A stretch of DNA of 64,000 nt from Streptomyces sp. NBC_00878 (GTDB lineage Bacteria > Actinomycetota > Actinomycetes > Streptomycetales > Streptomycetaceae): contig NZ_JAPEOK010000001.1 of NCBI RefSeq assembly GCF_026341515.1, positions 2,046,001-2,110,000 on the forward strand, written 5' to 3'. Below are positions 1 to 30,410 of the stretch, in pieces; position 1 is the stretch's first letter; each line of letters begins with the position of its first letter. Position numbers and translations under genes: made by a program. The notes under the pieces were generated by a model that saw nothing but the letters and a program-made list of their open reading frames with translations, was not told where the DNA came from and searched no databases.

Positions 1-847
1 GCTCCAGGGAGATGGCTTGATGCCTCGATGCCTTCTCCAGACTGAGTCCGAAGGTGGCCAGGACGCGCCGCTTGACCGGGTCACGCCGGGCCCAATGCGG
101 CACGACGGACGGCCCGTTGTACGGAACGTACCGCAGCGGAAGAGGTGACGACTCCGACTCCAGCCGCATCGAACCGACCATCTGCTCGATCACGAACTGA
201 CCGGTCACCATCTCCTCGGAGAACACGCCACCGAACTTCTCCGCCCACTCCCCCAGCCAGTCCCCCAGCGGATCCTCACGATCCTCGGGCACCTGCTCCT
301 CCCGCACCCGCAGAAAATGCCGCCGCATCCGGCCCACCACGTCGAGTTCGGTCAGCATGCGCCCGTGCGGGACTCCGGCCGCCGTGGCCGCGATGGCGCC
401 CGCGTGGCTCAGCCAGTCCCAGAGCACCAGGTCCGGCTTCCACCAGCGGCAGTACTCCACCAGCTCCTCGACCATCGCGTCGTTCATGGCCGCCTGGGTC
501 CGGCGTGTCATCTGGTATCCCCACCGCAGGCGCTCCCAGGTGAGTTCCTCCTCGCGGTTCTCCGACAGGTCGGTCAGAAGGTCGCCCCGCTCCGCGAGTT
601 CCTGGACCTTCGCCATCACCTCCGGAACCAGCAGCGCATCGAGTTTCTCCATGACCGGCTCGTCGGAACCGACGGGGACGGCCGGCAGACCCGAGGCGGT
701 GATGGCGTCCGTCAGCTCCGGGCCGCTCGCGACGCGGACCTCGTGCCCCGCCGACTGCAAGGCCCAGGCCAGCGGGACAAGAGCCTGGAAGTGGGACTGC
801 CACGGAATACAGGTGAACAGGATTCTCAAGCCGATCAGCCCCTTCAT
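1..847 (-). CDS. Glycosyltransferase, macrolide/antibiotic (GT-B, GT1) type, C-terminus outside window
   Basis: Probably transfers an NDP-deoxysugar to the product of this cluster. About 282 N-terminal residues are visible; the C-terminal nucleotide-sugar half lies beyond the left edge. The N-terminus has the family beta-strand pattern LRILFTCIPWQSHFQ followed by LVPLAWALQSAGHEVRVAS. It is clearly paralogous to the glycosyltransferase at 21407-22708: both carry NDAMVEELV, YCRWWKPDLV, EEMVTG and WARRDP.KRRVLATFG. I chose the ATG at 847, but a TTG seven codons in, preceded by AAGGGG, is an alternative start. It is divergent from rmlA, and the shared gap holds two copies of a motif also found upstream of the second glycosyltransferase. 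Role as a glycosyltransferase is firm; donor and acceptor are unknown. Confidence 0.88.
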   Translation of the reverse strand, partial: MKGLIGLRILFTCIPWQSHFQALVPLAWALQSAGHEVRVASGPELTDAITASGLPAVPVGSDEPVMEKLDALLVPEVMAKVQELAERGDLLTDLSENREEELTWERLRWGYQMTRRTQAAMNDAMVEELVEYCRWWKPDLVLWDWLSHAGAIAATAAGVPHGRMLTELDVVGRMRRHFLRVREEQVPEDREDPLGDWLGEWAEKFGGVFSEEMVTGQFVIEQMVGSMRLESESSPLPLRYVPYNGPSVVPHWARRDPVKRRVLATFGLSLEKASRHQAISLE

Positions 848-896
848 GGACGCCGCACCCATCTGGACACGGGAAACCCTCACCCGGCCACCTTGG

Positions 897-1031
897 GCCG
901 GTCTTGGCCCGCTCTTGATGTCCCGGATCCGGGCGGCACACGTCGGATTCACTACCTGCCGGCTGCCGGCTCTCGCGAGAAGGAGTGACGAACCCGGCCG
1001 CCAAGACGCGCATTAGACCGGCTTTGGACGG
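897..1031. promoter_or_regulatory. Divergent control region with two copies of a cluster motif
   Basis: The gap between the two divergent sugar genes has two sites that recur upstream of the second glycosyltransferase. On the minus strand, 897-912 reads GCGGGCCAAGACCGGC, identical to 21334-21349. On the plus strand, 1015-1031 reads AGACCGGCTTTGGACGG, 16 of 17 identical to 21342-21358. This is directly visible. That they are operators or promoter elements for a cluster regulator is inference. Confidence 0.5.
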
Positions 1032-1078
1032 GGCCCCGAAGATACGAGCACACCAGCCAAGAGGGGGCGAAAGAACGA

Positions 1079-1987
1079 ATGAAAGGCATCATTCTCGCGG
1101 GCGGCAACGGCACCCGCCTGCAACCCCTCACCTTCGCGGGTTCCAAACAACTGGCTCCGGTCTACGACAAGCCAATGATCTACTATCCGCTCTCCGTGCT
1201 CATGCTGGCGGGCGTCCGGGACATCCTCATCGTCACGCGTCCGAACGACCTCCCCGCCTTCCAAACCCTTTTGAGCGACGGTCGGCAACTGGGGCTGAAC
1301 ATCGACTACGCCACGCAGGACGAGCCGCGCGGTATCGCCGACGCCTTCCTCGTGGGGGCGGACCATATCCGCGGCGAGCAGTGCGCGCTGATCCTCGGCG
1401 ACAATCTCTTCCACGGCGCCAACCTGCCCACTTTGCTGCGGCGCAGCGCGCTCAAGATGGGTGGCTGTGTGCTGTTCGGCCAAGAGGTGGCCGACCCGGA
1501 GCGGTACGGCGTCGCCGAGATCGATCCGCGGGGCGAACTCGTCTCCATCGAGGAGAAGCCTCGGCACCCGCGCTCGAACCTCGCCATCCCGGGGATCTAC
1601 TTCTTCGACGCCCAGGTCTCGGACATCGCCAGAGACCTGGAGCCGTCCGCCCGGGGCGAACTGGAAATCACCGACGTGCTGCGCGTCTATCTGAAGATGG
1701 GCACCGCCGAGCTGGTGTGGCTGGGCAGGGGTGTCACCTGGCTGGACACCGGCACCCATGAGTCCCTGCTCGAAGCAGGGGCATTCGTGAGGGACACGCA
1801 GCGCCGACAGGGCATCCGGCTGGGCTGCATCGAGGAGATCGCCATGCACATGGGATACATCGAACCGGACGACTGCCGAGCGCTGGGTGCGGGCATGGGC
1901 AACTCGCCCTACGGCGAGTACGTCATGGAGCGGGCCCGCCTCTGCAGCGCGGGCGTGCTGCCCCCGCTTCCTTCGGAGGGCCTGTGA
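1079..1987 (+). CDS. rmlA: Glucose-1-phosphate thymidylyltransferase
   Basis: Makes dTDP-glucose from glucose-1-phosphate and dTTP, the first step to the cluster's deoxysugar. It shows the nucleotidyltransferase loop GGNGTRLQPLT at residues 8-18, SKQLAPVYDKPMIYYPLS at about 22-39, LILGDN near 105 and IEEKPRHP near 160. At 302 residues it matches the short RmlA class rather than the 355-residue StrD class. The ATG is preceded by GAGGGGG. Its stop overlaps the GTG of rmlB in a GTGA, so the two are translationally coupled. It is divergent from the first glycosyltransferase and shares the motif-bearing promoter region. Confidence 0.95.
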   Translation: MKGIILAGGNGTRLQPLTFAGSKQLAPVYDKPMIYYPLSVLMLAGVRDILIVTRPNDLPAFQTLLSDGRQLGLNIDYATQDEPRGIADAFLVGADHIRGEQCALILGDNLFHGANLPTLLRRSALKMGGCVLFGQEVADPERYGVAEIDPRGELVSIEEKPRHPRSNLAIPGIYFFDAQVSDIARDLEPSARGELEITDVLRVYLKMGTAELVWLGRGVTWLDTGTHESLLEAGAFVRDTQRRQGIRLGCIEEIAMHMGYIEPDDCRALGAGMGNSPYGEYVMERARLCSAGVLPPLPSEGL

Positions 1988-2964
1988 ATCTGCTGGTCAC
2001 CGGCGCCGCCGGATTCATTGGTTCCGCTTATGTCCGGATGCTGCTCGCGGACGGCGCGGCGCAGGGCTCCGGAGTCTCCCGGGTCACGGTGCTGGACAGC
2101 CTCACCTACGCCGGCAGCCTGGACAACCTCGATCTCAGTGATCCCCGGCTCACGTTCGTCCGGGGCGACATCTGCGATGCCCACGTCGTCGACAGGCTGA
2201 TGGAACAAGCCGACCAGGTGGTGCACTTCGCTGCCGAGTCCCACGTGGACCGCTCGATCGCCTCCGCCGACGCTTTCGTCCGAACCAACGTCACGGGCAC
2301 CCAGACCCTGTTGGACGCCGCGCTGCGGCACAGAGTCGGCCGCTTCGTGCACGTGTCCACGGACGAGGTCTACGGCTCGGTGGAAAGCGGCTCCCGCACC
2401 GAGCAGGACCCCCTGGACCCCAATTCGCCCTATGCCGCCTCCAAGGCGGCCTCGGACCTTCTGGCCCTGTCGTACCACCGCACCCACGGCCTGGACGTGC
2501 GGGTCACCCGGTGCAGCAACAACTACGGGCCGCGGCAGTTCCCCGAGAAGATCATCCCGCTGTTCCTCACGAGTCTGCTCGACGGTGATGACGTCCCGCT
2601 CTACGGCGACGGGCTGAACCGGCGCGACTGGCTGCACGTCGAGGACCACTGCGCGGCCGTCGAGCTGGTCCGCGCCGGCGGTGCTCCGGGCCGCGTCTAC
2701 AACATCGGTGGCGGCACCGAACTGAGCAACCGTGAACTGACCGGTCGGCTGCTCGCGGCCTGCGGCGCGGACTGGACACGGGTGCGCCATGTTCCGGACC
2801 GCAAGGGTCACGACAGGCGCTACTCGATCGACGGCACCCGGATGCTGACCGAGCTGGGCTATCGCCCCCGCCACGACTTCGATTCCGGGCTGGCCGAAAC
2901 CTTCGCCTGGTACCGCGACAACCGGAGCTGGTGGGAACCGCTCAAGCGTCGGCAGACCGCGTGA
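1984..2964 (+). CDS. rmlB: dTDP-glucose 4,6-dehydratase
   Basis: Extended SDR that converts dTDP-glucose to dTDP-4-keto-6-deoxyglucose, the branch point for 6-deoxysugars. The NAD-binding motif TGAAGFIGSAYV starts at residue 6. The catalytic YxxxK is in SPYAASKAASDLL. HVSTDEVYG, SNNYGPRQFPEK and NRRDWLHVEDH are all family signatures. The length of 326 residues is normal. The GTG start overlaps the rmlA stop. The last codons and the stop lie in the first copy of a 27-bp-period tandem duplication that continues downstream. Confidence 0.95.
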   Translation: MNLLVTGAAGFIGSAYVRMLLADGAAQGSGVSRVTVLDSLTYAGSLDNLDLSDPRLTFVRGDICDAHVVDRLMEQADQVVHFAAESHVDRSIASADAFVRTNVTGTQTLLDAALRHRVGRFVHVSTDEVYGSVESGSRTEQDPLDPNSPYAASKAASDLLALSYHRTHGLDVRVTRCSNNYGPRQFPEKIIPLFLTSLLDGDDVPLYGDGLNRRDWLHVEDHCAAVELVRAGGAPGRVYNIGGGTELSNRELTGRLLAACGADWTRVRHVPDRKGHDRRYSIDGTRMLTELGYRPRHDFDSGLAETFAWYRDNRSWWEPLKRRQTA

Positions 2965-3000: not shown

Positions 3001-3017
3001 AAAGGTAGGAGGGGGCG

Positions 3018-3163: not shown

Positions 3164-3820
3164 CTACCCCGCCAGGATCTCTTCGGCTGCGCTGTCGAGT
3201 GTGACGAGCACCCACTGTTCGAGGTCGATCCCCGCGTGCGACGCGGCACTGTGCCACCGCCGGATGCGGCCGATCGGAACGGCGAGCCGCTGGGTCGGCT
3301 CGATGTCCTGGTCCTCGCCCGCCGCCTCGTTCTCCTGCGCAAGACGCACGGCCTTGCGCAGTTGCTTGGTGCTCCACCCGTGTGCCTCGCACTGGTCGAG
3401 CCAGTGCTCCTGCTCCGCTATCGACAGCGAGGCCACCTCGGCATGGTGCTGAAAGCTGAGTGAGGCCCGTCGCCGGTCTATGGCGAAACGCCGGGATACC
3501 CAGGAGTAGTTGCGCAGTGTCTGATACCGGAGGCCAACAGCGCGAACTCCTCGCTCGTAGCGATCGCTGTAATGGTCCTTCCCATATATCAGCCAGTCGC
3601 CGAGCCACCAGGAAGAGGAATTAATAATTCCTGAAAGCCTTCGCCCGGCGTTCTCCCAGTTCTCGAAGGTGAGTCCGGCGGGGATCTGGAGGCCTACATT
3701 CGTCGTCAGCACCTCGCTGCGCTGCGGACCATCACCGGGTCTCCGCTGCTGCCCGACGGCCGTCTCGACATCATTCTGTCGACGTAACTGGGTTCGTGTA
3801 TCGGATCGCGGTGTCGCCAT
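3164..3820 (-). CDS. LmbU/NovE-family pathway regulator
   Basis: Resembles the LmbU family of actinomycete cluster-situated DNA-binding regulators (lincomycin LmbU, novobiocin NovE). The recognisable core, at about residues 50-120, is LTFENWENAGRRLS, then INSSSWWLGDWLIYGKDHY and SDRYERGVRAVGLRYQTLRN, followed by a Ser/Arg-rich helix SRRFAIDRRRASLSF. The C-terminal helices (LSIAEQEHWLDQCEAHGWS) look helix-turn-helix-like. I place the start at 3820 because GGGGGAAG precedes that ATG; an upstream ATG at 3886 would add 22 residues without a good ribosome site. It is the only obvious pathway regulator in the cluster and probably activates it. Family memory, not a search, supports the name. Confidence 0.72.
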   Translation of the reverse strand: MATPRSDTRTQLRRQNDVETAVGQQRRPGDGPQRSEVLTTNVGLQIPAGLTFENWENAGRRLSGIINSSSWWLGDWLIYGKDHYSDRYERGVRAVGLRYQTLRNYSWVSRRFAIDRRRASLSFQHHAEVASLSIAEQEHWLDQCEAHGWSTKQLRKAVRLAQENEAAGEDQDIEPTQRLAVPIGRIRRWHSAASHAGIDLEQWVLVTLDSAAEEILAG

Positions 3821-5106: not shown

Positions 5107-5221
5107 CGCTCCCTTCAACGGCAAGGGACTTGGCCGCGTCCCGGGGCCGCCCATCTCTAGATCGGGCGACGATGAGAAGTACTCAATGGCCCGAATCCAT
5201 CAACCGAAGAAGGAGGATGGA

Positions 5222-6016
5222 GTGACGAACACGCACCGCCGAGGCGCCGCCCGCGGCTGGATACGGCAGTACCACAACCCGAGGGGCGATGCCCCCACCC
5301 TCGTCTGCTTCCCGCACGCCGGGGGTTCCGCAACGTCGTTCTTCTCCCTGTCGGCCGCCCTTTCCGAAGGAGCCGAGGTGCTGATCGTGCAGTACCCCGG
5401 AAGGCAGGATCGCCTGGACGAGGCCGCTCTGAAGGATCTGGGCGAGTTGGCGGACGGGGCCGCCGCGGCTCTGGCGCCCTGGACGGACCGGCCATTGACG
5501 CTGTTCGGGCACAGCATGGGGTCCGTCGTGGCCTACGAGGTCGCACGACGACTGGAGCGGGGACCGGGCCCCGGTCCGGCCGGGCTCATCGTCTCGGGCA
5601 ACACGGCACCGTCGGTCCAGCGAGACCAAGGTGTCCACCTGATGGACGACGAGGAGCTCATGACCTGGATGTCAGCGCTCGCAGGCACACCGCCGGCCGT
5701 GCTGGCGGACAAAGAGATCCTGGCCACCGTTGTCCCCGCCCTGCGTGGCGACTTCACAGCACTGGAGACATATCGCGACCCGGGGGGCAGCTCGGTCGAG
5801 TGCCCCATCAGCGGCTATGTGGGGGACCGCGATCCGCACGTGCCGCACGACGACTTCCTCAAGTGGGCGGAGCACACGACGGCGGAGTTCACGGTCCAGG
5901 TCTTCGAGGGTGACCACTTCTATCTCGAAAGCCAGGCGCAGGAAGTGGCCCGGAGCGTTCTGCGGGACCTGTCCGCCTTCGCCTCCCGGCGCCCGGCGCG
6001 ACACCCCCTCGCCTGA
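5222..6016 (+). CDS. Type II (editing) thioesterase
   Basis: Alpha/beta hydrolase of the external thioesterase class that clears misprimed carrier proteins or helps release products in NRPS/PKS systems. The N-terminus has LVCFPHAGGSATSFF. The nucleophile elbow is LFGHSMGSVVAYE at about residue 97, and the Asp and His of the triad fit GDRDPHVP and FEGDHFYLES near 190-235. Its 264 residues fit the family. The GTG at 5222 is chosen because AAGGAGG lies just upstream. The NRPS has no integrated TE domain, so this protein could take part in release as well as editing (inference). Confidence 0.92.
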   Translation: MTNTHRRGAARGWIRQYHNPRGDAPTLVCFPHAGGSATSFFSLSAALSEGAEVLIVQYPGRQDRLDEAALKDLGELADGAAAALAPWTDRPLTLFGHSMGSVVAYEVARRLERGPGPGPAGLIVSGNTAPSVQRDQGVHLMDDEELMTWMSALAGTPPAVLADKEILATVVPALRGDFTALETYRDPGGSSVECPISGYVGDRDPHVPHDDFLKWAEHTTAEFTVQVFEGDHFYLESQAQEVARSVLRDLSAFASRRPARHPLA

Positions 6017-8030: not shown

Positions 8031-8066
8031 CGGGCGTTGCCCCGGAGGCGAGTGTCGACAAGACCA

Positions 8067-8160: not shown

Positions 8161-8931
8161 TCATTCGTCGTCGGCCGGCCCCTGCGTGTAGTACGGCAGA
8201 TAGGTGTCCAGGATGCTGTCCAGATAGCTCGCCGCGCTCAGCAGCCCAGGGCGGAAGTCCGGAACGTACGCCTGGAGCCGGCGGATCGAGGCGCGGGTGA
8301 CTACCACGTCGCCAGGAATGTACGTGCGAACCGCGCTCGTGCCCAGCCGCTTCTCGATGCCGTCCAGGATCGTCTCGACGTGCTGCGGCGCCCCGGATGC
8401 CACGTTGAAGACCTCGCCCCGCACACCTTGGCCGAGCAGTCGCCCGATGGCGTCGACGAGGTCGTTCACGTCCAGCAGGTCCCGGTGGGCGCCCTGCTGC
8501 ACCCGCACGGCACCGGCCCGCACCTGTCGCGTCAGTCCGGGCAGCAGCTGGTGAGCACGTTGATGGCGGCCCACCAGATGACTCGGTCGCAGGATCAGGT
8601 AAGGGACTCCCGAACCGCGGATCGTCGACTCGAGCGCCAACTTGTGTCTGCCGTACACCGTTTGCGGAACCAGCGGGCCCCCTTCGGCGCACAGGGCGCC
8701 GGTGGACCCGTACACCGCGAACGAGGCCGAGGAGAAGAACAGCACCGTCCGATGCCGGTCCCTGCACTCGCGCAGCACCTCATGCACCAGCTCGGCTTCC
8801 CGGCCGAACTCCGCGGGCGCGGTGACCGAGTGACTGGAGACGCCGGCTGCGATCGCGGTGACCTCGGGAAACCGCTCCGTGAAGGCCTCCGAGAGATACC
8901 GGGCGAGAAAGCCGTGGCCGATGATCTGCAC
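8161..8931 (-). CDS. SDR-type NDP-hexose ketoreductase/epimerase
   Basis: A short extended-SDR protein of 256 residues, probably a 4-keto (or 3-keto) reductase in deoxysugar formation. The nucleotide motif is a divergent IIGHGFLARYL at the N-terminus. SSASFAVYG supplies the catalytic Ser region and VYGRHK the YxxxK. LILRPSHLVG and GEVFNVASG follow as in NAD-dependent epimerases. It is the last gene of the minus-strand P450-NRPS-DUF1707 operon. With the 2,3-dehydratase it would lead to a 2,6-dideoxysugar. The exact position reduced cannot be read from sequence. Confidence 0.75.
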   Translation of the reverse strand: MQIIGHGFLARYLSEAFTERFPEVTAIAAGVSSHSVTAPAEFGREAELVHEVLRECRDRHRTVLFFSSASFAVYGSTGALCAEGGPLVPQTVYGRHKLALESTIRGSGVPYLILRPSHLVGRHQRAHQLLPGLTRQVRAGAVRVQQGAHRDLLDVNDLVDAIGRLLGQGVRGEVFNVASGAPQHVETILDGIEKRLGTSAVRTYIPGDVVVTRASIRRLQAYVPDFRPGLLSAASYLDSILDTYLPYYTQGPADDE

Positions 8932-21406: not shown

Positions 21407-22708
21407 GTGCGCGTCCTCATCGTGTCCTGGCCCTGGAGGACTCACTTCCAACCGATGGTCCCGTTGGGCTGGGCACTTCAGGCCGCGGGGCACGAGGTGC
21501 GTGTCTCCAGCAGCCCGGACCTGCTCGACTCCCTGACCGCGTCGGGCCTGATGACGGTTCCGGTCGGCCCCCCCGGCATCCTGCAGAAGATGTCCGAGCA
21601 ATTCACCGAGGAACAGGTGGAGCTCGTACGGACCCTGGAGCAGCTCGGATCGCGGGACGACTTCTTCTTTGACTTCGCCCTGCGCACCGAAGAGGCGCTC
21701 ACCTGGGACCGGCTGCGCCTGAGAACCCGGTACTTCACGGAGATCCTCAAGGGCGTGAACGACGCGATGGTCGAGGAGTTGGTCGACTACTGCCGCTGGT
21801 GGAAGCCGGACCTGGTCGTGTGGGAGTGGCTGAGCCACGCGGGCCAGATCGCGGCCCGCGCGACAGGCGTGGCCGGCGCGCGCATTCGCTCCGAGATCGA
21901 TGTCGACGCCTGGTCCCGGCGCGCCTTCCTCCAGGTGCGCGAACAGCAGGCACCCGAGGAGCGAGAGGACGCGCTGGCGGATTGGCTGGGGCGCTGGGCG
22001 GAGAAGTTCGGGAAGTCGTACTCCGAGGAGATGGTGACCGGAAACTTCACCATCGAGCACATGCTGGGTTCCATGCGGCTGGATTCGGATGTGCCGCACA
22101 TACCCCTGCGCTATGTCTCATACCACGGGCCCGCCGTCGTGCCCCAGTGGGCCCGCCGCGACCCGGCGAAGCGGCGCGTTCTGGCCACCTTCGGGGTCAG
22201 CCAGAAAGAGGGAAGGGTTTACCAAGCCGTTTCCGTCAAGCAGTTGCAGCAGATACTCGACTCTCTGGCCGATCTGGATATCGAACTGGTGGTAACGGCG
22301 CCGGAGAAAATTCGGAGAAACCTGAAACGGGTTCCCTCCAATACGATGCTGGCGGAGTTCGTCCCCTTGCACGCGGTTGTCCCCACGTGCTCAGCTGTGA
22401 TCCATCACGGCGGGATTCCCGCATTCATGGAGTCGGTCGCCAACGGCGTTCCGCAGTTGATGGTCGGCCGGGTTGTCGGTGACATCGACTTGCGTGCCCC
22501 GCTGCTGGAGAAGGCCCAGGGAGGCCTGTACATATCGAGGCCGCAATTGTCCGGGGACCGGGTTCGGGAGTGCCTGGTGCGGCTGCTGGAGGAGCCCGCG
22601 TTCCGGGAGGGCGCCAGCAGGCTGCGTGCGGAGCAGGCCGCGCAGCCGACGCCCAGCGAACTGGTCCCCGAACTGGAAAAGCTCGCGGCCCGCTATCGCT
22701 CTCGCTGA
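21407..22708 (+). CDS. Glycosyltransferase, macrolide/antibiotic (GT-B, GT1) type
   Basis: 433 residues from the GTG at 21407, which has GGAGGAG eight bases upstream. The N-terminus reads MRVLIVSWPWRTHFQPMVPL. The C-terminal donor-binding half has VTAPEKIRRNLKRVPSNTML, AEFVPLHAVVPTCSAVIHHG and GGIPAFMESVANGVPQL, the usual H-H-G-G sugar-nucleotide region. It is a paralog of the truncated enzyme at the left edge, so the product may carry two sugars or a disaccharide. It leads an eight-gene stretch with the polyketide genes: 42 bases to the ACP start. Confidence 0.95.
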   Translation: MRVLIVSWPWRTHFQPMVPLGWALQAAGHEVRVSSSPDLLDSLTASGLMTVPVGPPGILQKMSEQFTEEQVELVRTLEQLGSRDDFFFDFALRTEEALTWDRLRLRTRYFTEILKGVNDAMVEELVDYCRWWKPDLVVWEWLSHAGQIAARATGVAGARIRSEIDVDAWSRRAFLQVREQQAPEEREDALADWLGRWAEKFGKSYSEEMVTGNFTIEHMLGSMRLDSDVPHIPLRYVSYHGPAVVPQWARRDPAKRRVLATFGVSQKEGRVYQAVSVKQLQQILDSLADLDIELVVTAPEKIRRNLKRVPSNTMLAEFVPLHAVVPTCSAVIHHGGIPAFMESVANGVPQLMVGRVVGDIDLRAPLLEKAQGGLYISRPQLSGDRVRECLVRLLEEPAFREGASRLRAEQAAQPTPSELVPELEKLAARYRSR

Positions 22709-22750: not shown

Positions 22751-22993
22751 ATGCTGGCAGATCGAATGGCGGAGCTGCGGGACATGGCAGCGGACATATT
22801 CACCGTGGAACCCGAAGAAGTGGAACGGGCCACCACCTTCTCCGACGATCTGGGCGTCGACTCGCTGCTGGCCGTCGAGCTGCTGAGTCGGATCGAGCAG
22901 CGGTACAACATCATGATCGACGCAGACGACTTGCAGAAGATGACCGACCTCCGTTCCACGTACAAGGTCGTGGCCGACGCGGCGGGATGGTAG
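22751..22993 (+). CDS. Acyl carrier protein 1 (type II PKS)
   Basis: 80 residues. The phosphopantetheine serine is in DDLGVDSLLAVELLSRIEQ (DSL near residue 37). Start ATG is preceded by AAGGAGGAA. Its stop overlaps the ketosynthase ATG, so translation is coupled. It is the probable chain carrier for the KS/CLF pair that follows. Confidence 0.93.
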   Translation: MLADRMAELRDMAADIFTVEPEEVERATTFSDDLGVDSLLAVELLSRIEQRYNIMIDADDLQKMTDLRSTYKVVADAAGW

Positions 22994-24204
22994 TCGCGGT
23001 GCACCGCGTGGTCATCACCGGTCTCGGGCCGGTGTCGAACATCGGCATCGGAGTGGACGGTTTCTGCACTGCCGTGCGGGCGGGGAAGAGCGGAATCTCG
23101 CGGATCTCCTCGTTCGACGCGTCGAGGTTCGAACACCAGATGGCAGGTGAGGTGGCGGACTTCGATTCCGCGGAACTGGTCACCCGGCTGGACGTCGCCG
23201 ACTGGGGACGAGCCTCGCTCTTCGCCGCGGCCGCCGCTCGGCTGGCGGCGGACGACGCCGGTATCCAGGACTTCGGCGATGACGCCGCCGTTCTCATGGG
23301 AACGACGTCGGGCGAGATTCCGAACGTCGTGGCGATGACCGAGTCCTGGTACCGAGACGGTCCGGCGGCCCCTGACCGGACGCTGGCCGCACAACTGCCC
23401 ACCGGCCGCCTGGCCCTGGCGGCCGCTCAGGAGATCGGTGCCACCGGCGAGACGATGACCTTCTCGGCCGCGTGCGCGGCGGCCAACTGCGCCATCGGCT
23501 ACGCGTACGACCTTGTCAGCTCCGGAGAGACCACCGTCGCCATGGCCGGGGGCGCCGACGCGGTGAGCCGGTTCACCCATGCCGCGTTCCACCGGCTCGG
23601 CGCCCTAGCGAAGGACACCTGCCGGCCCTTCGACCGGGAACGGGACGGCATGCTGACGGCGGAGGGCGGTGCGGCGCTGGTTCTGGAGGCCCTGGACAGC
23701 GCGATCGAACGGGGCGCCCGCATCTACGCGGAGGTTCTGGGATACGCGGTCAGCTGCGATGCCTACCATCCCTCGGCGCCGGAGCCGGAGAGCATCGCGC
23801 GGACCATGGGCACCGCACTGCGGCGCTCCGGTGTGACGCCGGACGAGGTCGACTACATCTGCGCGCACGGTACGGGCACTCGACTCAACGACCGGGTGGA
23901 GGCCCAGGCCATCCGCGGTGTGTACGGCGAGACGGCACCCCCGGTCAGCTCCCTCAAGTCCATGCTCGGGCACACCATGGGGGCGGCCAGCGGCTTCGGC
24001 AGCATCGCCTGCGCACTGGCACTGAGCAGGGGCTTCATCCCGCCCACCATCAACCACCGGCACCCGGATCCGGAACTGGGCGGCATCGATCCCGTTGCGG
24101 GAACCGCGCGGGAGACGACCGTTCGAGTGGCCCAGAACAACGCCTTCGGTTTCGGCGGCAACAATGCCATCGTCCTCTTTGGGAGTGCTCCATGCACATC
24201 GTGA
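22987..24204 (+). CDS. Beta-ketoacyl-ACP synthase (KS-alpha), highly reducing type II PKS
   Basis: 405-residue FabF-like condensing enzyme that extends the ACP-bound chain with malonyl units. Catalytic residues are all present: Cys in TFSAACAAANCAIGYAYDLV, His in ICAHGTGTRLNDRVEAQAI, and the Lys/His pair in SSLKSMLGHTMGAASGFG. The ATG lies inside the ACP stop, and the 3' end overlaps the chain-length factor by 13 bases, so the two subunits are made together. Dedicated dehydratases and a ketoreductase close by point to a polyene-forming rather than aromatic polyketide. Confidence 0.95.
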   Translation: MVVAVHRVVITGLGPVSNIGIGVDGFCTAVRAGKSGISRISSFDASRFEHQMAGEVADFDSAELVTRLDVADWGRASLFAAAAARLAADDAGIQDFGDDAAVLMGTTSGEIPNVVAMTESWYRDGPAAPDRTLAAQLPTGRLALAAAQEIGATGETMTFSAACAAANCAIGYAYDLVSSGETTVAMAGGADAVSRFTHAAFHRLGALAKDTCRPFDRERDGMLTAEGGAALVLEALDSAIERGARIYAEVLGYAVSCDAYHPSAPEPESIARTMGTALRRSGVTPDEVDYICAHGTGTRLNDRVEAQAIRGVYGETAPPVSSLKSMLGHTMGAASGFGSIACALALSRGFIPPTINHRHPDPELGGIDPVAGTARETTVRVAQNNAFGFGGNNAIVLFGSAPCTS

Positions 24205-25181
24205 TCTCGGGCCGGGGAACCGTCTGGCCGGATCCCGTCCCCCGGGCGCACACCCCGCCGTCCGGACCGGCCTTCACCGTCGGCGACTTCGACGGTGAGG
24301 CGCTGCTCGGCCGCAGAACCGCTCAGTACAACCACCGGAGTGCCCAACTGGCCATGGTGGCATGCGGCAGGGCGCTCGATGACGCGGGCCTGCGGGTGAC
24401 CGATGAGAACCGTGATCGCATCGGCGTCACGCTGGGCACGGCAGCGGGCAGCGTCACCGGCATGGCCGAGTTCGGCATGGACACCTTCTCCCAACCGCGT
24501 CCGCACATGGTGGCCGCCGCCAAGTCCTCCCACTGCGTTCTCAGTTCGCCCGCGGGGGCAGCGGCCATCGCCTACGGCCTCCGGGGTGCCAACGCGACAG
24601 TGGCCTCCGGGCCGGCGACCGGTCTTGCCGTACTGCGCCATGCCATGGTCATGCTGAGAGCCGGGCACGCCGACGCGGTGCTCGCGGGCGCCTCGGAGGA
24701 GTTCGGCGGACCGACTTCATGGCTCGCCCGGGCGGCCCGCGGCCCCCAGGTCCAGGGCGAGGGCGCGGCCGTTTTCGTGCTGGAGGGCAGTGCCTCTGCC
24801 CGGGCCGCCGGCCGGAGGCCACTGGCGGCGGTCGCCGCCGTGGACGTGCGGGCGGTGCCCGACTTCTCCGCCGGCCGGTTCGCCGACACGATCGCCCGAA
24901 CGCTGGAAAGAGCTGGCGTCGCCGCGCCGGATGTGTCGGCCGCGGCCACCCGTCACACGGGTGTCGACGAGGTGGACGAAGCTCAGCGCGGCGGAATCGC
25001 CCACGTGTTGCCCGAGGCAGCACACGTCACCGACGAGAAGCGAATCGGGGACTGCTACAGCGCCCACGCGCTGCTTCAGCTCGCACGGCTCCTCGATGAG
25101 GCGACGCTGCCCGCTGTCGTCGTCGCGGCGGATCCGGACGGCCTGTTGTCGGTCGCCGTACTGAAGGGTGTCCCGGAGTGA
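24192..25181 (+). CDS. Chain-length factor (KS-beta)
   Basis: 329 residues, shorter than a full KS. Where the KS has Cys (SAACAAAN), this protein reads ATVASGPATGLAVL, so the nucleophile is replaced (Pro in my alignment). The catalytic His motifs are also lost: the AHGTG equivalent is ATRHTGVDEVDEA, and the C-terminal motif reads RIGDCYSAHALLQLARLL. It should form the inactive half of the KS-CLF heterodimer and set chain length. It overlaps the KS gene by 13 bases. The N-terminus is divergent (MHIVISGRGTVWPDPVPRAH). Confidence 0.9.
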   Translation: MHIVISGRGTVWPDPVPRAHTPPSGPAFTVGDFDGEALLGRRTAQYNHRSAQLAMVACGRALDDAGLRVTDENRDRIGVTLGTAAGSVTGMAEFGMDTFSQPRPHMVAAAKSSHCVLSSPAGAAAIAYGLRGANATVASGPATGLAVLRHAMVMLRAGHADAVLAGASEEFGGPTSWLARAARGPQVQGEGAAVFVLEGSASARAAGRRPLAAVAAVDVRAVPDFSAGRFADTIARTLERAGVAAPDVSAAATRHTGVDEVDEAQRGGIAHVLPEAAHVTDEKRIGDCYSAHALLQLARLLDEATLPAVVVAADPDGLLSVAVLKGVPE

Positions 25182-25220: not shown

Positions 25221-26822
25221 GTGGACGATCGTGACCCCACGGCGGACAACCTCTGCCAGTTCCTGCTGGCTCCCGCCGCTCGCACGCCGGACAAGGCCGC
25301 CGTGGTGGAATCCGACGAGACCGGGCTGCTCACCGAGGTCTCGTACCGGCAACTCACCGTGCTCGTACAGGAGTTCACCCGCGCCCTGGAACCACTCGGC
25401 CTCGATGTCGGCGACCGGGTCGTTGTGGAAGCACACAGTTCCGCGGCGACGGTAGCGCTGCTGCTCGCCTGTTCCAAGCTGGGTCTGCCGTTCGTCCCGA
25501 TCAGTCCGCAGACCCCCGACAACCGCCTCCTCACCATTCTGAGGTCGGTCGAACCGGCGCTCCACGCCCGGGCGGACGGCCTTGACCGGCGTGACCTGCC
25601 GTGGGCCGGTGGCACCGCGCGCTTCGGACGAAGCGGGCTGGCAGTGGAACACCGTCCGGCGCGCCGGACGCGGCGACGCCGACGCGTACTCGCCGTCGAC
25701 ACGGCCTACATCATCTTCACCTCCGGGTCGACCGGGCGCCCCAAGGGCGTGGTGATGAGCCATCGGGCGATCGTCACGTTCCTGCGCGCGGTGATCGGAG
25801 ACGGACTGGTCGGCGACACCGACCGGGTCGCCAGCACCTCTCCGCTCCAGTTCGACTTCGCGCTCTTCGGGATCGGCGTCGCTCTGGGGAGCGGTGCGAC
25901 CCTGGTGCCGGTCGGACGCGAGTGCATCGACTCGCCCCGGCGCATGGTCAACTTCCTTCGTGACACCGACGTCACCCAGGTCCATGGAGTGCCCTCGCTG
26001 TGGCGTCCGGTCCTGCGCCACGATCCGGAACTGCTGAAGCGGCTGGACAAGGTGCGCTCGGTGGTCTTCGCAGGCGAGGGCTTCCCCCTGTCCGAACTGC
26101 GTCGACTCCAGGAGATGCTGGTCGGCACCCGCCTGGTCAACGGCTACGGCGCCACCGAGTCGATGGCCGCCTCGTTCACCGATGTTCCCGACCCACTGCC
26201 CGCGGAGCAGCGGTCGCTGTCGATCGGGCGCGCCCACTCCGGGGCCGAGATGACTCTGGTGGACACAGCCGGGCGAGTGGTGACGCGGCCGGGGGTGGTC
26301 GGAGAGATCCACCTGCGGAGCCCCGCGCTGTTCAGCGGCTACTGGGACGATCCTCGGGCCACCGCCCAGGTGCTGGTTCCCGACCCGCTGGACCCGCGGC
26401 ACGGGCAGGCGGTGCTCCGCACAGGCGATCTGGCCTACCTGGACGAGCGGAACGAGCTGTACTTCGTCGGCCGATCCGACTCCCAGGTGCAGATCCGGGG
26501 CAACAGGGTCGAACTGGGCGAGGTGGAGAGCGTGCTGGCCCGGCTGCCCGCCGTGACGGCGGCCGCGGCCGCCATCGTGCCGCACGGCGGCGACCACGTA
26601 CTGATGGCGGGCGTCGTTCTGGACGACACAGCGGCGCCGTTCGACGAGGAGGCGGCGCTCGCCTTCTGCGCCGAGGAGTTGTCCGCCTATATGACGCCGC
26701 GCCGGATTCAGCCCTTGGCCGACCTTCCCCTGACCGAGAACGGCAAGGTCGACCGGCTGATGCTCGCGCGCCTTGTGACGACCGCTGTTCACGACAGGCG
26801 CACGACATCGAACCGACACTGA
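25221..26822 (+). CDS. AMP-forming acyl/aminoacyl ligase (starter activation)
   Basis: 533-residue ANL-superfamily ligase, GTG start. A3 is IIFTSGSTGRPKGVVMSH, A5 NGYGATES, A7 LRTGDLAYLDERNELYFVGR, A8 SQVQIRGNRVELGEVES, and A10 LTENGKVDRLML with the catalytic Lys. It probably activates an acid and loads it on one of the two ACPs. The A4-like segment LQFDFALFG keeps the Asp that binds the amino group in amino-acid-activating A domains. The substrate may therefore be an amino acid such as a beta-aryl amino acid rather than plain cinnamate; this is unsure. The MIO enzyme 10 bases downstream is the natural supplier. Confidence 0.88.
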   Translation: MDDRDPTADNLCQFLLAPAARTPDKAAVVESDETGLLTEVSYRQLTVLVQEFTRALEPLGLDVGDRVVVEAHSSAATVALLLACSKLGLPFVPISPQTPDNRLLTILRSVEPALHARADGLDRRDLPWAGGTARFGRSGLAVEHRPARRTRRRRRVLAVDTAYIIFTSGSTGRPKGVVMSHRAIVTFLRAVIGDGLVGDTDRVASTSPLQFDFALFGIGVALGSGATLVPVGRECIDSPRRMVNFLRDTDVTQVHGVPSLWRPVLRHDPELLKRLDKVRSVVFAGEGFPLSELRRLQEMLVGTRLVNGYGATESMAASFTDVPDPLPAEQRSLSIGRAHSGAEMTLVDTAGRVVTRPGVVGEIHLRSPALFSGYWDDPRATAQVLVPDPLDPRHGQAVLRTGDLAYLDERNELYFVGRSDSQVQIRGNRVELGEVESVLARLPAVTAAAAAIVPHGGDHVLMAGVVLDDTAAPFDEEAALAFCAEELSAYMTPRRIQPLADLPLTENGKVDRLMLARLVTTAVHDRRTTSNRH

Positions 26823-26832
26823 GGAGCCCTGT

Positions 26833-28389
26833 ATGACGTACACCCTGTCCCTGGACCGCCGCGTACGGCTGGCGGACATCGAGTCGATCGCCGCCCCGGA
26901 GGGCCCTGAGGTGGCTCTGGACGGTGCGGCGCGAGAGCGGGTCGACGCCTCCCGGCGCACGCTGGAGAAGTTCGTGGCGGACGGCCGAATCATCTACGGC
27001 GTCACCACCAGCATGGGCGGGTTCGTCGACTGGCTCGTGCCCGTTTCCATGGCACGCCAGTTGCAGGAGAACCTGCTCAACGCGGTGGCGACCAACGTGG
27101 GGGAGCGCCTGGACGACGTCACCGTCCGCGCGATCATGGTGTCCCGCATCGCGTCGCTCTCCCGCGGCAACTCGGCCATTTCCCTGGCCAACTTGGACAA
27201 GCTCATCGCGGTGGTGAACTCGGGAGTCGTGCCCTGTGTCCCGGAGAAGGGGTCACTCGGTACCAGTGGCGACCTCGGCCCGCTCGCCGCCATCGCGCTG
27301 GTCTGCATAGGCCAGTGGAAGGCTCGGCTGGGCGGCGAGGTCCTGCCGGGCGCCGAGGCGCTGCGACGAGTCGGCATCGCTCCGATGGAGCTCAGCTACA
27401 AGGAAGGCCTCGCCCTGATCAACGGCACGTCGGGGATGGTCGGCCTGGGCTCACTCAATGTGCAGCGGGCCCGTCGGCTACTGCGGTCGTACCTGCTCAT
27501 CTCGGCACTGTCCGTGGAGGCACTGGCGGGCAAGACCAAGCCGTTCGACCCACGGGTCCACCGGCTCAAGCCGCATCTCGGACAGCTGGAGGTCGCGGAC
27601 TACCTGTGGCGGACGCTGGGCGACTCCCGACTCGCGGTCGACGAACTCGATACCGAGCACCTGCTCGCGGACGAGATCGGAGAAACCGCGAAGGCTGGGT
27701 CGCAGTCGATCGAGGACGCCTACTCCGTCCGGTGCACACCCCAGATCCTCGGACCGGTTCTGGACAGCTTGGGCACGATCGAGCGAACCGTCGAGGACGA
27801 GCTGAATTCCTCCAACGACAATCCGCTTGTCAACCCCGATGAGACGGAGGTCTTCCACAACGGGCACTTCCACGGACAGTACGTGTCCATGGCGATGGAC
27901 CACCTGGTGATCGCCATGACGACCCTGATGAACCTCTCCAACCGCCGGATCGACCGATTCCTGGACAACAGCAACAGCAATGGGCTGCCTGCCTTCCTGT
28001 GCCGGGAGGATCCGGGCCTGCGGCTGGGTCTGATGGGTGGGCAGTTCATGACCGCATCGCTGACTGCGGAGACCCGGGCGATGGCGATGCCCATGTCCAT
28101 CCAGTCCTTGAGCACCACCGCGGACTTCCAGGACATCGTCTCGTTCGGCTTCGTCGCGGCACGCCGTGCCCGGGAGGTGCTGGACAACGTGGCCCACGTG
28201 GTGGCGTTCGAGCTCCTGTGCGCCTGCCAGGCGGTGGACATCCGCGGTACCGACGGCCTGTCCTCGGCCACCCGCGTCCTGTACGAACAGACCCGGGAAG
28301 TGATCCCGTACCTCGACCACGACATCACGATCACCGAGTACGTGGAAGAGCTCGCCCAACGGCTGCTGACTCACCCGAGCCTGGGCTGA
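26833..28389 (+). CDS. MIO-type aromatic amino acid ammonia-lyase or aminomutase
   Basis: 518-residue HAL/PAL/TAL-family enzyme. The MIO triad is in KGSLGTSGDLGPLAAIAL, with Thr-Ser-Gly in place of the usual Ala-Ser-Gly. The catalytic Tyr loop is IYGVTTSMGGF, differing from the common TTGFG. Other family marks are DAYSVRCTPQILGP, LNSSNDNPLVN and FQDIVSFGFVAAR. At the aryl-selectivity pair (His-His in bacterial tyrosine ammonia-lyase, within NLVHHLASG) this protein has Asn-Ala in NLLNAVATN, so a tyrosine substrate is not supported. Product could be a cinnamic acid or a beta-amino acid, feeding the adjacent ligase. It is tightly packed in the polyketide operon. Confidence 0.9.
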   Translation: MTYTLSLDRRVRLADIESIAAPEGPEVALDGAARERVDASRRTLEKFVADGRIIYGVTTSMGGFVDWLVPVSMARQLQENLLNAVATNVGERLDDVTVRAIMVSRIASLSRGNSAISLANLDKLIAVVNSGVVPCVPEKGSLGTSGDLGPLAAIALVCIGQWKARLGGEVLPGAEALRRVGIAPMELSYKEGLALINGTSGMVGLGSLNVQRARRLLRSYLLISALSVEALAGKTKPFDPRVHRLKPHLGQLEVADYLWRTLGDSRLAVDELDTEHLLADEIGETAKAGSQSIEDAYSVRCTPQILGPVLDSLGTIERTVEDELNSSNDNPLVNPDETEVFHNGHFHGQYVSMAMDHLVIAMTTLMNLSNRRIDRFLDNSNSNGLPAFLCREDPGLRLGLMGGQFMTASLTAETRAMAMPMSIQSLSTTADFQDIVSFGFVAARRAREVLDNVAHVVAFELLCACQAVDIRGTDGLSSATRVLYEQTREVIPYLDHDITITEYVEELAQRLLTHPSLG

Positions 28390-28397
28390 GGACTGCC

Positions 28398-28811
28398 GTG
28401 CCCTCCTCACCGCCGAAAGCGACCATGTCCGCCCTGCCCGTACCCCGGGCATGGAGCGAGCGGACAGCCGACGGCACACACGCCGTCCTGCGGCTTCCGG
28501 TGGATCTCGGCGCCGACTACATGGCCGGCCACTATCCGGGCTACCCGATTCTGCCCGGAGTGGTCGTCATGGACTGGGTACAGCAGGCGGTCGACAGCCT
28601 CCACGGCAGCGACCTGCGACTGTGCCGCATCGACAGAGCACGCTTCGTCCGGCCCCTCTTCCCGGGAGACGTACTGGAACTCGCCATCCAGGTGCGCCGC
28701 CGCGAATCGAACGGTGAGGCGATCTCCGCCAACGCCCGGATAGTGCGCTCGGACCGCCAACTGGCCGTCGAGCTCGACGCCACGTTCGGACCGGTGGGGC
28801 CCCATGCTTGA
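28398..28811 (+). CDS. Hot-dog dehydratase subunit A (His-bearing)
   Basis: 137 residues if the GTG at 28398 (GAGG upstream) is used; the ATG at 28425 is possible. The FabA/FabZ active-site helix reads GHYPGYPILPGVVVMDWVQQ, keeping the catalytic His and an Asp where FabZ has Glu. It removes water from beta-hydroxyacyl-ACP to make the conjugated double bonds. It overlaps the next dehydratase by 8 bases, which has the opposite residue pattern, so a heterodimer is likely, as in aryl-polyene and ishigamide-type systems. Confidence 0.85.
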   Translation: MPSSPPKATMSALPVPRAWSERTADGTHAVLRLPVDLGADYMAGHYPGYPILPGVVVMDWVQQAVDSLHGSDLRLCRIDRARFVRPLFPGDVLELAIQVRRRESNGEAISANARIVRSDRQLAVELDATFGPVGPHA

Positions 28812-29259
28812 CCATGCGCAGGTGCGCAGCCTGCTACGACAGCGTCCTCCGATGGTTCTGCTCGACACCGTCGGGGAGTACTCGCCGACCTCGCTCGTCG
28901 CCACGAAGGCGATCACCGGCTCCGAAAGCTGCTACCGGGACCTCGCGGACAGCACGCCCCTCGCGGGCTTCGCGTACCCGCAGGCGCTCATGGTGGAGTC
29001 GTTCGGTCAGGCGTGTTCTCTTCTCTGGACATTGGCCGGTCTCGGTCCGCCGGACCGCATCCCTTTGCTGGTCGGAGTGAGCGACCTGGTTTTCCACTCG
29101 CCGTCCCTCCCGGGGGACGTCCTGGAACATCAGGTCCGACTCGTGCACAGCTCCGAAACCGCTTGCGAGTTCACGGGCCGGTCCCACGTGAACGGCGACA
29201 CCGTTCTCAGCGTCCGCTCCCTGCTGGTTGCTTCGCTGCCCGGCCCCTCCCCCACGTAA
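28804..29259 (+). CDS. Hot-dog dehydratase subunit B (His lost)
   Basis: 151-residue FabZ-like protein starting LLRQRPPMVLLDTV. In the active-site helix, AGFAYPQALMVESFGQACSL, the Glu is present but the His of the H-(F/Y)-P-G motif is absent. Alone it should be inactive; paired with the His-bearing partner it may complete or shape one site. The ATG lies inside the partner gene, which favours equimolar heterodimer formation. Confidence 0.82.
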   Translation: MLDHAQVRSLLRQRPPMVLLDTVGEYSPTSLVATKAITGSESCYRDLADSTPLAGFAYPQALMVESFGQACSLLWTLAGLGPPDRIPLLVGVSDLVFHSPSLPGDVLEHQVRLVHSSETACEFTGRSHVNGDTVLSVRSLLVASLPGPSPT

Positions 29260-29305
29260 GACCGCACGCCACGCCCCGTGACCAACCCCGACCGAAGGAC
29301 GGATC

Positions 29306-29578
29306 ATGCAGGACATCGACCACCCGGCCGTACGAATCCGATCGATCGTCGCCGGCATTCTGGACCTGAGGCCGGACCACATCGACGACGACGAGGACTT
29401 CATCGACTCCTACCGGGCGGATTCCCTCAACCTGATCGAGATCGTCGCCCAGCTGGAGAAGCACTACCAGGTGGAGCTGCCCCCGGACGAGCTGCAACGC
29501 GCACGCTCCGTCAACGCCCTTCGAGACCTGCTCGTCCGGCTCCTGGACGAAACCCGGATCCCGGATTCGGCGGGTTAG
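29306..29578 (+). CDS. Acyl carrier protein 2
   Basis: 90 residues with the phosphopantetheine site YRADSLNLIEIVAQLEKHYQ (DSL near residue 40). It is only distantly like ACP1 (acidic loop IDDDEDFIDS). Two ACPs suggest split roles, for example one loaded by the ligase with the starter and one used for extension or transfer to the peptide (inference). It is the last gene of the plus-strand polyketide operon; a hairpin follows. Confidence 0.92.
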   Translation: MQDIDHPAVRIRSIVAGILDLRPDHIDDDEDFIDSYRADSLNLIEIVAQLEKHYQVELPPDELQRARSVNALRDLLVRLLDETRIPDSAG

Positions 29579-29608
29579 CGTCCGGCAGGCCCCCGTGCGG
29601 CCTCTCCA

Positions 29609-29643
29609 GGGTGCCTCCCCCCGTCGCACCGGTGGAGGCACCC
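29609..29643. terminator. Bidirectional terminator
   Basis: GGGTGCCTCC at 29609-29618 pairs perfectly with 29634-29643. It sits between the polyketide operon and the convergent ketoreductase; the right arm reaches to three bases before the ketoreductase stop. Confidence 0.75.
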
Positions 29644-29645
29644 GC

Positions 29646-30410
29646 TCACAGTGCCACGCCGCCGTCGATGCGGAACACCTGGCCCGTGACATATGCGGCC
29701 TCGGGCGAGAGCAGATAGGAGACCAGCCCGGCCACCTCTTCGGGTGTGCCGAAACGGCCCAGCGGTATGCGGTCGAGGACAGCGCTCTTGGACACGGAGG
29801 CGACCATCTCGGTATCGATGAAGCCGGGGGCCACGGCATTGGCGCGCACGCCGAACCGCGCGAACTCCTTCGCCATTACCTGGGTGAGCGCGATGATCCC
29901 AGCCTTGGACGCGGAGTAGTTGGCCTGCCCGACGTTGCCGACGACTCCCGCGACCGACGACAGGGTGACAATCGCCCCCGCACTGCGCCGGGCCATCGAG
30001 CGGGCCACCGCGCGCAGCAGGTTGTAGGTGCCGTCGAGGTTGGTCCGCAGCACGGTGTCCCACTCGTCGTCGGACATCAGCGCGAGCGGTCGGTCCCGGG
30101 TGATCCCGGCGGATGCCACGACCGCTGCGACGGGCCCGAGCCCGGCCTCGACATCGGCGACGAAGCCGCGAACCCCGTCGCGGTCGGCGACGTCGACGCG
30201 CCGGACCAGCACCCGCCTCCCGGCATCGCGAACCTCCTTGCCGACCAATTCGGCTGCATCGGCGTCAGAGCGATAACACAACGCCACATCGAACCCGTCG
30301 CGCGCCAGCCGTACGGCGACCGCCCGTCCTATCCCCCGCGACCCGCCGGTCACCAGAGCCACCGGCCTGGCCTCCGCCACCGCACCGGCCTCGCTCGAAT
30401 CGATGGACAT
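29646..30410 (-). CDS. 3-oxoacyl-ACP reductase (FabG-type ketoreductase)
   Basis: 254-residue classical SDR. The NADPH motif is [20 protein letters not shown]; the catalytic Ser and Tyr-x-x-x-Lys are in [10 protein letters not shown] and [10 protein letters not shown]. The C-terminus reads [12 protein letters not shown]. It should reduce the beta-keto group after each KS/CLF extension, ahead of the dehydratase pair, giving the highly reducing type II set. It is transcribed on its own from the right, converging on the operon it serves, and marks the likely right border of the cluster. Confidence 0.92.

Follow-up and report, generated by a model that had tools for sequence, protein, structure and literature searches.

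What does a locus make when it sets a highly reducing type II polyketide synthase (PKS) beside a nonribosomal peptide synthetase (NRPS) and deoxysugar genes, and do these parts belong to one pathway at all? The question is raised by a 64,000-nucleotide stretch of Streptomyces sp. NBC_00878 (hereafter the window; C1:2046001-2110000 of an 11.1-Mb genome), in which an original prediction made from the letters alone had placed a hybrid cluster at 1..30410. We took in a left flank of 60 kb and a right flank of 20 kb, counting bases to the left of the window as negative; genes were called with a simple codon-usage script, so start positions are approximate. The cluster comprises 39 genes (R12-R50) over 73.5 kb, from about -43081 to 30410, and the left edge of the window cuts through it: 43 kb lie to the left of base 1, with R12-R27 entirely outside the window and R28 spanning the edge, and the span first given had thus been cut at base 1. 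We propose that the cluster would make a glycosylated piperazate cyclohexapeptide carrying a polyketide alpha-amino acid built by a relay from a type II to a type I PKS, a proposal whose chances, taken whole, we judge to be evenly balanced.

A scan of public genomes for the methylideneimidazolone (MIO) enzyme of the cluster returned 71 loci, headed by Streptomyces orinoci NRRL B-3379 (92% identity); 27 of these 71, together with 9 of 30 from a second MIO search, gave 36 loci that were annotated against the region. In S. orinoci, all 39 genes have matches in the same order on a single contig, R15 as a broken frame only, with ratios of nonsynonymous to synonymous substitution (Ka/Ks) of 0.07-0.53. 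A second Streptomyces genome, G247, has 38 of the 39 by gene calling and R48 (67%) by tblastn, again in the same order; Ka/Ks over the 38 called genes is 0.10-0.82 and is highest for R47 (0.82) and R49 (0.52). Because the flanking genes R11 and R51 have no match in S. orinoci (where the contig stops ~3.2 kb past R50, leaving a short right flank) or in G247, while R12-R50 all match, we place the borders at ~-43081 and 30410. With counterparts of every one of the 39 genes in two other species, the set appears to be retained beyond chance. From the synteny with common borders in three species, we conclude that R12-R50 is one cluster and that its PKS and NRPS halves are not separate; both this unity and the gene content are supported directly by sequence. 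The same synteny answers the case of two adjacent clusters, which the original prediction had named as its own undoing. Two unrelated neighbors, a piperazate NRPS with type I PKS on the left and a type II PKS on the right, might be suspected from the occurrence of each block without the other in other genomes. Here, however, the blocks interleave, with the two-module NRPS, a 2,3-dehydratase, and a glycosyltransferase between them and with sugar genes both mid-cluster and at the left end. The entire order and both borders recur in the two other species, and we regard this alternative as highly improbable. An MIO-family search of 392 genomes gave nine over the cut-off, the cluster being present in the window genome and G247; the other seven have different neighbors in the stretches seen (~1.5 kb per side or more). 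An open-access literature search found no described product of the cluster among the papers listed, and no sugar-bearing piperazate cyclohexapeptide among the matches listed. The available part of PMC11761653 names neoantimycin and SW-163B for S. orinoci.

The peptide part of the product can be read from the NRPS and piperazate (Piz) genes, in which domains are abbreviated C (condensation), A (adenylation), T (thiolation), E (epimerization), and TE (thioesterase):
-37854..-36229, minus strand: R16, ornithine N-hydroxylase (PF13434, 352.8 bits)
-35914..-35246, plus strand: R17, piperazate synthase family (PF04299, 132 bits)
-18517..-18305, minus strand: R25, MbtH-like protein
-18295..-1955, minus strand: R26, NRPS of 5446 aa, four modules plus terminal thioesterase
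9630..17708, minus strand: R37, NRPS, A-T-E-C-A(FkbM O-methyltransferase)-T, starting with A and without an N-terminal C domain

What had been described as a dipeptide NRPS turned out to be two of six modules: R37 contributes two within the window and R26, to its left, four, followed by a GHSLG thioesterase. Motifs and BLAST with R37 domains give R26 the order C-A-T-E-C-A-T-C-A-T-E-C-A-T-TE. The D-X-Thr unit of the original prediction fits the first two modules, with the amendment that the second A domain of R37, in the Thr module, carries an inserted FkbM-type methyltransferase. The A-domain codes comprise nine residues, the tenth (Lys) being assumed. Those of R37 are DMWTVGAVW (X1) and DFWNVGMVH, which we take to be a Thr code, and those of R26 are DVFSVAAYA, DVFSVAAYA, DAWMTGAVC (X5), and DTYIWVGAA (X6); all six are identical in the window, S. 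orinoci, and G247 (the second Piz domain of G247 by eye). The predicted module order is D-X1, Thr (possibly O-methylated), D-Piz, L-Piz, D-X5, X6. We presume that PF04299, and with it R17, is linked to KtzT. The R16/R17 pair, the Piz code, and six modules with a terminal thioesterase are the marks of a piperazate cyclohexapeptide, and the cluster has all of them. The available text of PMC3943440 and PMC9866976 gives DVFSVAAYAK as the piperazate code of HmtL-A1 and Lun22, the first nine residues of which both R26 copies match. The order of the modules and both the codes and the genes for piperazate are plain to see, the peptide core is well supported, and the product is very probably a piperazate-containing hexapeptide. 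Threonine is probably O-methylated by the inserted FkbM domain, and we infer that the R26 thioesterase cyclizes the peptide. Because the NRPS line starts without a C domain, no fatty N-acyl group is expected on the peptide; such a group typically requires a starter C domain (available part of PMC11446937). Pathways of the skyllamycin/pachycephalamide type have this domain in the first NRPS module, where R37 starts with A, and on this ground we rejected the type II chain as an N-acyl group of the peptide.

A second set of genes, also mostly left of the window, encodes a type I PKS with tailoring enzymes that use, among other cofactors, flavin mononucleotide (FMN):
-35183 or -35099..-34005, plus strand: R18, aminotransferase
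-33991..-32822, plus strand: R19, cytochrome P450
-32813..-27420, plus strand: R20, type I PKS module
-27423..-22351, plus strand: R21, type I PKS module
-22354..-21122, plus strand: R22, FMN-dependent dehydrogenase
5222..6016, plus strand: R32, type II thioesterase (PF00975, 180 bits)

With R18-R22 and R32, the cluster contains the ilamycin-type combination of a PKS without thioesterase, a P450, an aminotransferase, and a type II thioesterase; by this analogy, the type I PKS set quite likely makes an alpha-amino acid. R20 starts 20 residues ahead of its ketosynthase (KS), the cluster has no PKS loading module, no further type I KS was found within the window cluster, and R20 and R21 are the sole PKS genes of this kind in the S. 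orinoci and G247 clusters. A search of 246 genomes with R22 gave matches at E<=1e-90 in 149, five of which, besides the window genome, reach 63-67%. All five carry PKS and type II thioesterase genes around the R22 match; R18 and R19 have matches in two (G234 and G136), and the other three are cut by contig ends. G234 carries a loading KS, acyltransferase (AT), and acyl carrier protein (ACP) followed by modules M1 and M2 in one 4530-aa protein (Pfam), with M3 in a second; G136 carries AT-ACP-M1-M2 in a 4221-aa protein, whose first ~380 residues lie outside the comparison, and likewise a second M3 protein. Because the G234 PKS (and in part that of G136) has a loading module and M1, both absent from our cluster, a starter appears to be missing from R20.

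Module homology was assigned from the AT-to-ACP parts and docking ends; KS identity alone was rejected as a guide, the R20 and R21 KSs being 82% alike and grouping together. From AT to ACP, R20 scores 1140 and 1056 bits against M2 of these two relatives and 854 and 678 bits against M1, and its C-terminal docking end is similar to that of M2. R21 has a docking start in common with M3, its KS is nearest the M3 KS (69-70%, the R20 KS aside), and the three segments that align with M3 add up to 995 and 1012 bits. Missing from R21 are the second half of the AT and a ~340-residue insert of M3 that we take to be an enoylreductase; at the position of the dehydratase (DH) His, R21 has Tyr in both the window and S. 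orinoci but His in G247. A second piperazate NRPS line (DVFSVAAYA twice), with P450 genes and a PKS amino-acid cassette of the same kind, lies at G042:C10:267772-312726 (L164-L167); in G042, nothing in 67 kb matches R42-R49, and no MIO match passes the cut-off. X6 shares only I278, G322, and small residues at 331 with the final module of the 5854-aa G042 NRPS, too few for an A-domain match to relatives to place the polyketide residue decisively.

If R20 needs a primer, the type II PKS at the right end of the cluster is the place to look, with its KS, chain-length factor (CLF), ketoreductase (KR), and genes for a beta-phenylalanine (beta-Phe) starter:
22751..22993, plus strand: R42, ACP of type II PKS (PF00550)
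22987..24204, plus strand: R43, KS of highly reducing type II PKS (best PDB match 6kxd_A, 376 bits)
24192..25181, plus strand: R44, CLF (best PDB match 6kxd_B, 97 bits)
25221..26822, plus strand: R45, beta-aminoacyl-ACP synthetase (best PDB matches 7dq5, 620 bits, and 6m01, 617 bits)
26833..28389, plus strand: R46, probable phenylalanine 2,3-aminomutase, MIO type (TIGR04475, 881 bits, cut-off 800; AdmH, 720 bits; tree)
28398..28811, plus strand: R47, dehydratase, FabA/FabZ-like (PF07977/PF22818)
28852..29259 (start may be 28804), plus strand: R48, dehydratase partner (FabZ-like, 54 bits in NCBIfam, below cut-off; no Pfam match)
29306..29578, plus strand: R49, second ACP, of the beta-Phe cassette (PF00550; cassette in relatives)
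29646..30410, minus strand: R50, KR and right border gene (PF13561)

The KS/CLF, two ACPs, paired dehydratases, KR, MIO enzyme, and ligase all lie where the original prediction had put them, as do the two-module NRPS gene, a P450, and the NDP-hexose (nucleoside diphosphate hexose) 2,3-dehydratase. R44 has SGPATG at the active-Cys position and hence no active Cys. Inspected by eye, R47 retains both catalytic residues, whereas the catalytic His is missing from R48; a His-less partner is the pattern of a heterodimeric dehydratase. A KS/CLF with Cys-less CLF, discrete ACP, KR, and DH together make up a highly reducing type II PKS, and its best structural match, 6kxd, is presumably Iga11-Iga12 of ishigamide.

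R46 passes the phenylalanine aminomutase model TIGR04475, and its closest solved structure is AdmH. MIO genes from clusters of enterocin-like content also exceed that cut-off, and TIGR04475 alone was rejected as proof of an aminomutase. In a tree of 35 sequences (midpoint root), R46 falls within a clade of 14 that unites ligase-aminomutase-DH-DH'-ACP cassettes and Dactylosporangium roseum (93/99); this clade joins Embleya scabrispora, Serratia, and Vibrionales sequences, which we take to be of hitachimycin and andrimid type, at 98/95, apart from the enterocin-like sequences. R45 is nearest to solved beta-aminoacyl-ACP synthetases, the closest of which we take to be HitB, and keeps the Asp of FDFALF. 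According to the available part of PMC11284099, a conserved Asp binds the beta-amine in such synthetases. An aminomutase and a beta-aminoacyl-ACP synthetase, the pair expected for a beta-amino-acid starter, are thus present at the sequence level. R46 is probably a phenylalanine 2,3-aminomutase, and because it groups with aminomutase-type sequences and adjoins a beta-amino-acid ligase, (S)-beta-phenylalanine is a likelier starter than cinnamate; that beta-Phe starts the type II PKS we hold to be fairly probable. MIO enzymes of this family are capable of both lyase and aminomutase reactions, and an ammonia lyase would prime a classical aryl polyene with cinnamate, losing the amine; polyene chemistry would permit this loss, and the enterocin-like sequences over the TIGR04475 cut-off are consistent with it. 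Given that R45 is nearest the beta-amino-acid class with its Asp kept and that R46 groups away from the sequences taken as EncP-type, we consider such a lyase improbable.

In andrimid, a type II-like PKS is paired with beta-Phe, and the nearest solved MIO enzyme to R46 is AdmH, so one may ask whether the type II PKS builds an unsaturated acyl chain from acetate to which beta-Phe is joined as an amide and not as starter. Pfam scans, which covered the cluster genes other than R12, R13, R14, R23, R26, and R31, gave no AdmF-kind transglutaminase-like enzyme, the cluster has no starter C domain, and the dehydratases and ACP travel with ligase and aminomutase as a single cassette; this makes an andrimid-like arrangement distinctly improbable. 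KS relatives were rejected as a guide to the starter: four KS-bearing genomes (G006, G407, G031, and G035; 52-59% KS identity) have no ligase or MIO match in 20 kb each. The ligase-aminomutase-DH-DH'-ACP cassette recurs elsewhere (L006, L007, L009, L034, L080, and L082), in Streptacidiphilus fuscans (L006) beside a KS, a KS-KS fusion, a KSIII-like gene, and a SnoaL-like cyclase. D. roseum NRRL B-16295 (L010, L144) has beta-Phe ligase, aminomutase, and DH genes with KS, CLF, and ACP genes at 45, 35, and 32% to R43, R44, and R42 and a KR at 56% to R50; its locus also holds a 2,3-dehydratase, methyltransferases, three PhyH oxygenases, an FkbM enzyme, and a radical S-adenosylmethionine enzyme. It looks like a different glycoside cluster, perhaps, we assume, an orthosomycin-like one.

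How might these parts work together? R37 (A-T-E) would open the peptide without an N-acyl group and add Thr, likely O-methylated by the FkbM domain; R16 and R17 would convert ornithine to piperazate; and R26 would add D-Piz, L-Piz, a D-residue, and the last residue before its thioesterase cyclizes the chain. R46 would form (S)-beta-phenylalanine, which R45 would load onto an ACP, and R43/R44 with R50 and R47/R48 would extend and reduce the beta-Phe-primed chain. The type II chain would then pass to R20, and R20 and R21 would add the final units; oxidation of the alpha carbon would fall to R19 (P450) and R22 (FMN enzyme), R18 would aminate it, and R32 would release the product. This polyketide alpha-amino acid would enter the NRPS, for which X6 (DTYIWVGAA) is the best candidate module, and R23, R28, and R41 would attach a C-methylated trideoxyhexose. 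We propose the relay because R20 needs priming and, apart from the type II system, none of the 39 genes offers another source of acyl-ACP. The hand-off to R20 is a tentative step, which we place somewhat short of an even chance, and we hold the estimate down because G234 is the only relative with a fully checked loading module. With slightly more reserve still, we predict that the relay would yield a phenyl-capped, amine-bearing polyenyl beta-hydroxy-alpha-amino acid within a glycosylated piperazate cyclohexapeptide. The glycosylated aryl-polyene with a D-X-Thr unit that was first envisaged is not supported, in view of the six modules with thioesterase, the piperazate genes and codes, and the type I PKS for a probable alpha-amino acid.

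Several observations weigh against this proposal, among them the reach of TIGR04475 to enterocin-like genes described above. The codes of X1, X5, and X6 matched no known code. No enzyme or docking feature linking the type II ACPs to R20 was seen, and priming of the R20 KS might instead come from a short acyl-CoA or from another PKS of this genome, which has 75 KS matches. The best single BLAST segment of R21 is to M1 of G136 (543 bits), and M3 is favored only when its three segments are taken together. G247 has frame breaks in R20 and R21, from assembly error or decay, and the R21 AT is truncated, so the type I PKS may be decaying or may use the R20 AT in trans. The beta-Phe block is the most diverged part of the cluster in G247 (R47 55%, R48 67%, R49 62%). 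Macrolactam pathways use a set of amine-protecting aminoacyl ligase, acyltransferase, and peptidase, and no such genes were found among the cluster genes scanned; the block may act like HitA/HitB, yet it falls outside the macrolactam class. D. roseum (L010, L143, L144) also speaks for a different division of labor, in which the type I PKS is primed by a short acyl unit and makes a small polyketide amino acid, and the beta-Phe type II chain is joined later to the peptide or sugar: there the beta-Phe and type II genes lie beside deoxysugar, glycosyltransferase, PhyH, and methyltransferase genes, and ~60 kb hold no NRPS-gene match save an FkbM-type gene similar to the methyltransferase part of R37. 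Five other genomes, moreover, carry the PKS cassette, and in four of them no MIO match exceeds the family cut-off. However, the same Pfam scans gave no acyltransferase or starter C domain for later attachment among the cluster genes, and R20 is without the loading parts present in G234; we consider later attachment unlikely.

We know of no described case in which a type II PKS relays to a type I PKS to supply an NRPS with an amino acid, although no literature search was aimed there. If the relay is real, evolution can put a complete type II PKS, starter supply included, in place of the loading end of a type I PKS, and the swap could be copied in engineering. Piperazate cyclohexapeptides include agents against multi-drug-resistant Gram-positive bacteria (available part of PMC9866976). 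Since NRRL B-3379 is a named strain of S. orinoci in a culture collection, the prediction is testable without new isolation.

The remaining genes of the cluster concern the sugar, regulation, transport, and other functions:
-43081..-41846, minus strand: R12, C-methyltransferase-like (44% to L010:14187-15485, which matches Methyltransf_13/14)
-41362..-40049, minus strand: R13, RfbH/SpnQ-type 3-dehydrase (672 bits, cut-off 423)
-40052..-39042, minus strand: R14, ketoreductase/epimerase-like (by eye)
-38858..-37866, minus strand: R15, GFO/IDH/MocA family, 3-ketoreductase-like
-21134..-19833, minus strand: R23, glycosyltransferase
-19774..-18560, minus strand: R24, P450
-1247..-498, plus strand: R27, Streptomyces antibiotic regulatory protein (SARP) regulator
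-475..862, minus strand: R28, glycosyltransferase, EryCIII type (PF21036, 189 bits on the in-window part, 1..862)
1079..1987, plus strand: R29, glucose-1-phosphate thymidylyltransferase, RmlA (PF00483)
1984..2964, plus strand: R30, dTDP-glucose (thymidine diphosphate glucose) 4,6-dehydratase, RmlB (PF16363)
3164..3712, minus strand: R31, LmbU-family transcriptional regulator (NF038070, 226 bits, cut-off 125)
6196-7182 (ATPase) and 7179-8030 (membrane protein), plus strand: R33-R34, ATP-binding cassette (ABC) exporter
8161..8931, minus strand: R35, NDP-sugar epimerase/ketoreductase-like (PF01370, 68 bits)
8971..9516, minus strand: R36, DUF1707 protein (PF08044)
17779..18999, minus strand: R38, cytochrome P450 (heme Cys present)
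19322..19759, plus strand: R39, YidB-like protein of 145 aa (PF20159)
19801..21186, minus strand: R40, NDP-hexose 2,3-dehydratase (PF03559, 480.5 bits on 19801-21129)
21407..22708, plus strand: R41, glycosyltransferase, activator-dependent family (TIGR04516, 447 bits, cut-off 440)

RmlA and RmlB with R40, R15, R13, R12, R14, and R35 point to a C-methylated 2,3,6-trideoxyhexose. The dideoxysugar of the original prediction is revised by the RfbH/SpnQ-type 3-dehydrase and the C-methyltransferase-like gene among them, and its two glycosyltransferases become three (R23, R28, and R41); the product is very probably glycosylated. Within this one strain, the paralogues R23 and R28 have nearly the same sequence across most of the C-terminal two thirds but divergent N-termini, which suggests gene conversion. 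R38 was rejected as a P450-derived glycosyltransferase activator, as it scores below the TIGR04515 cut-off and keeps its heme Cys. All three clusters retain R39 (82 and 80% identity). An extra gene in 3832-5172 was also rejected, the DNA being unmatched in S. orinoci save two short pieces. To the right of the border lie three transposase-like (DDE) genes, at 31529-32647, 32881-34125, and 41868-43079 (all minus strand), the first ~1.1 kb past R50, and, at 37690-40605 (plus strand), a gene for a 971-aa nSTAND1 NTPase with WD40 repeats.

Among known systems, kutzneride presumably has an O-methyltransferase inside an A domain, as R37 does. As far as the available text of PMC9866976 and PMC3943440 goes, lunaemycin, himastatin, and kutzneride have the same A-T-E start, a finishing NRPS of the order C-A-T-E-C-A-T-C-A-T-E-C-A-T-TE, and KtzI- and KtzT-like genes in common with the cluster. 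Lun22 of lunaemycin has the same layout as R26 in the available part of PMC9866976, and lunaemycin, in the text available, has four Piz modules where our cluster has two. Compared with these three pathways, the cluster adds type I and type II PKSs, beta-Phe genes, three glycosyltransferases, and deoxysugar genes. Piperazimycin is said to be a Piz hexadepsipeptide with a polyketide-like 2-amino-8-methyl-4,6-nonadienoic acid and not to bear sugar. By analogy, a residue of this type would fit the loading-M1-M2-M3 PKS of G234. The word piperazimycin is absent from the reviews PMC13194151 and PMC12339860. In the 2-amino-4-hexenoic acid route of ilamycin (IlaE, IlaD, IlaH, and IlaF; available part of PMC5577134), a PKS without thioesterase, a P450, an aminotransferase, and a type II thioesterase are also found; our cluster differs from what is described there in its extra FMN-dependent oxidase and in having no loading or first module. 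Ishigamide and other highly reducing type II PKSs have KS/CLF, discrete ACP, KR, and DH/DH' as the cluster does; unlike ishigamide, the cluster has a beta-Phe ligase and an aminomutase adjoining and no starter C domain downstream. Hitachimycin HitA/HitB are, in the available part of PMC11284099, a phenylalanine aminomutase and a beta-aminoacyl-ACP synthetase, as in the cluster; HitB, on the same text, serves a macrolactam PKS, whereas the cassette described here adjoins a type II PKS.

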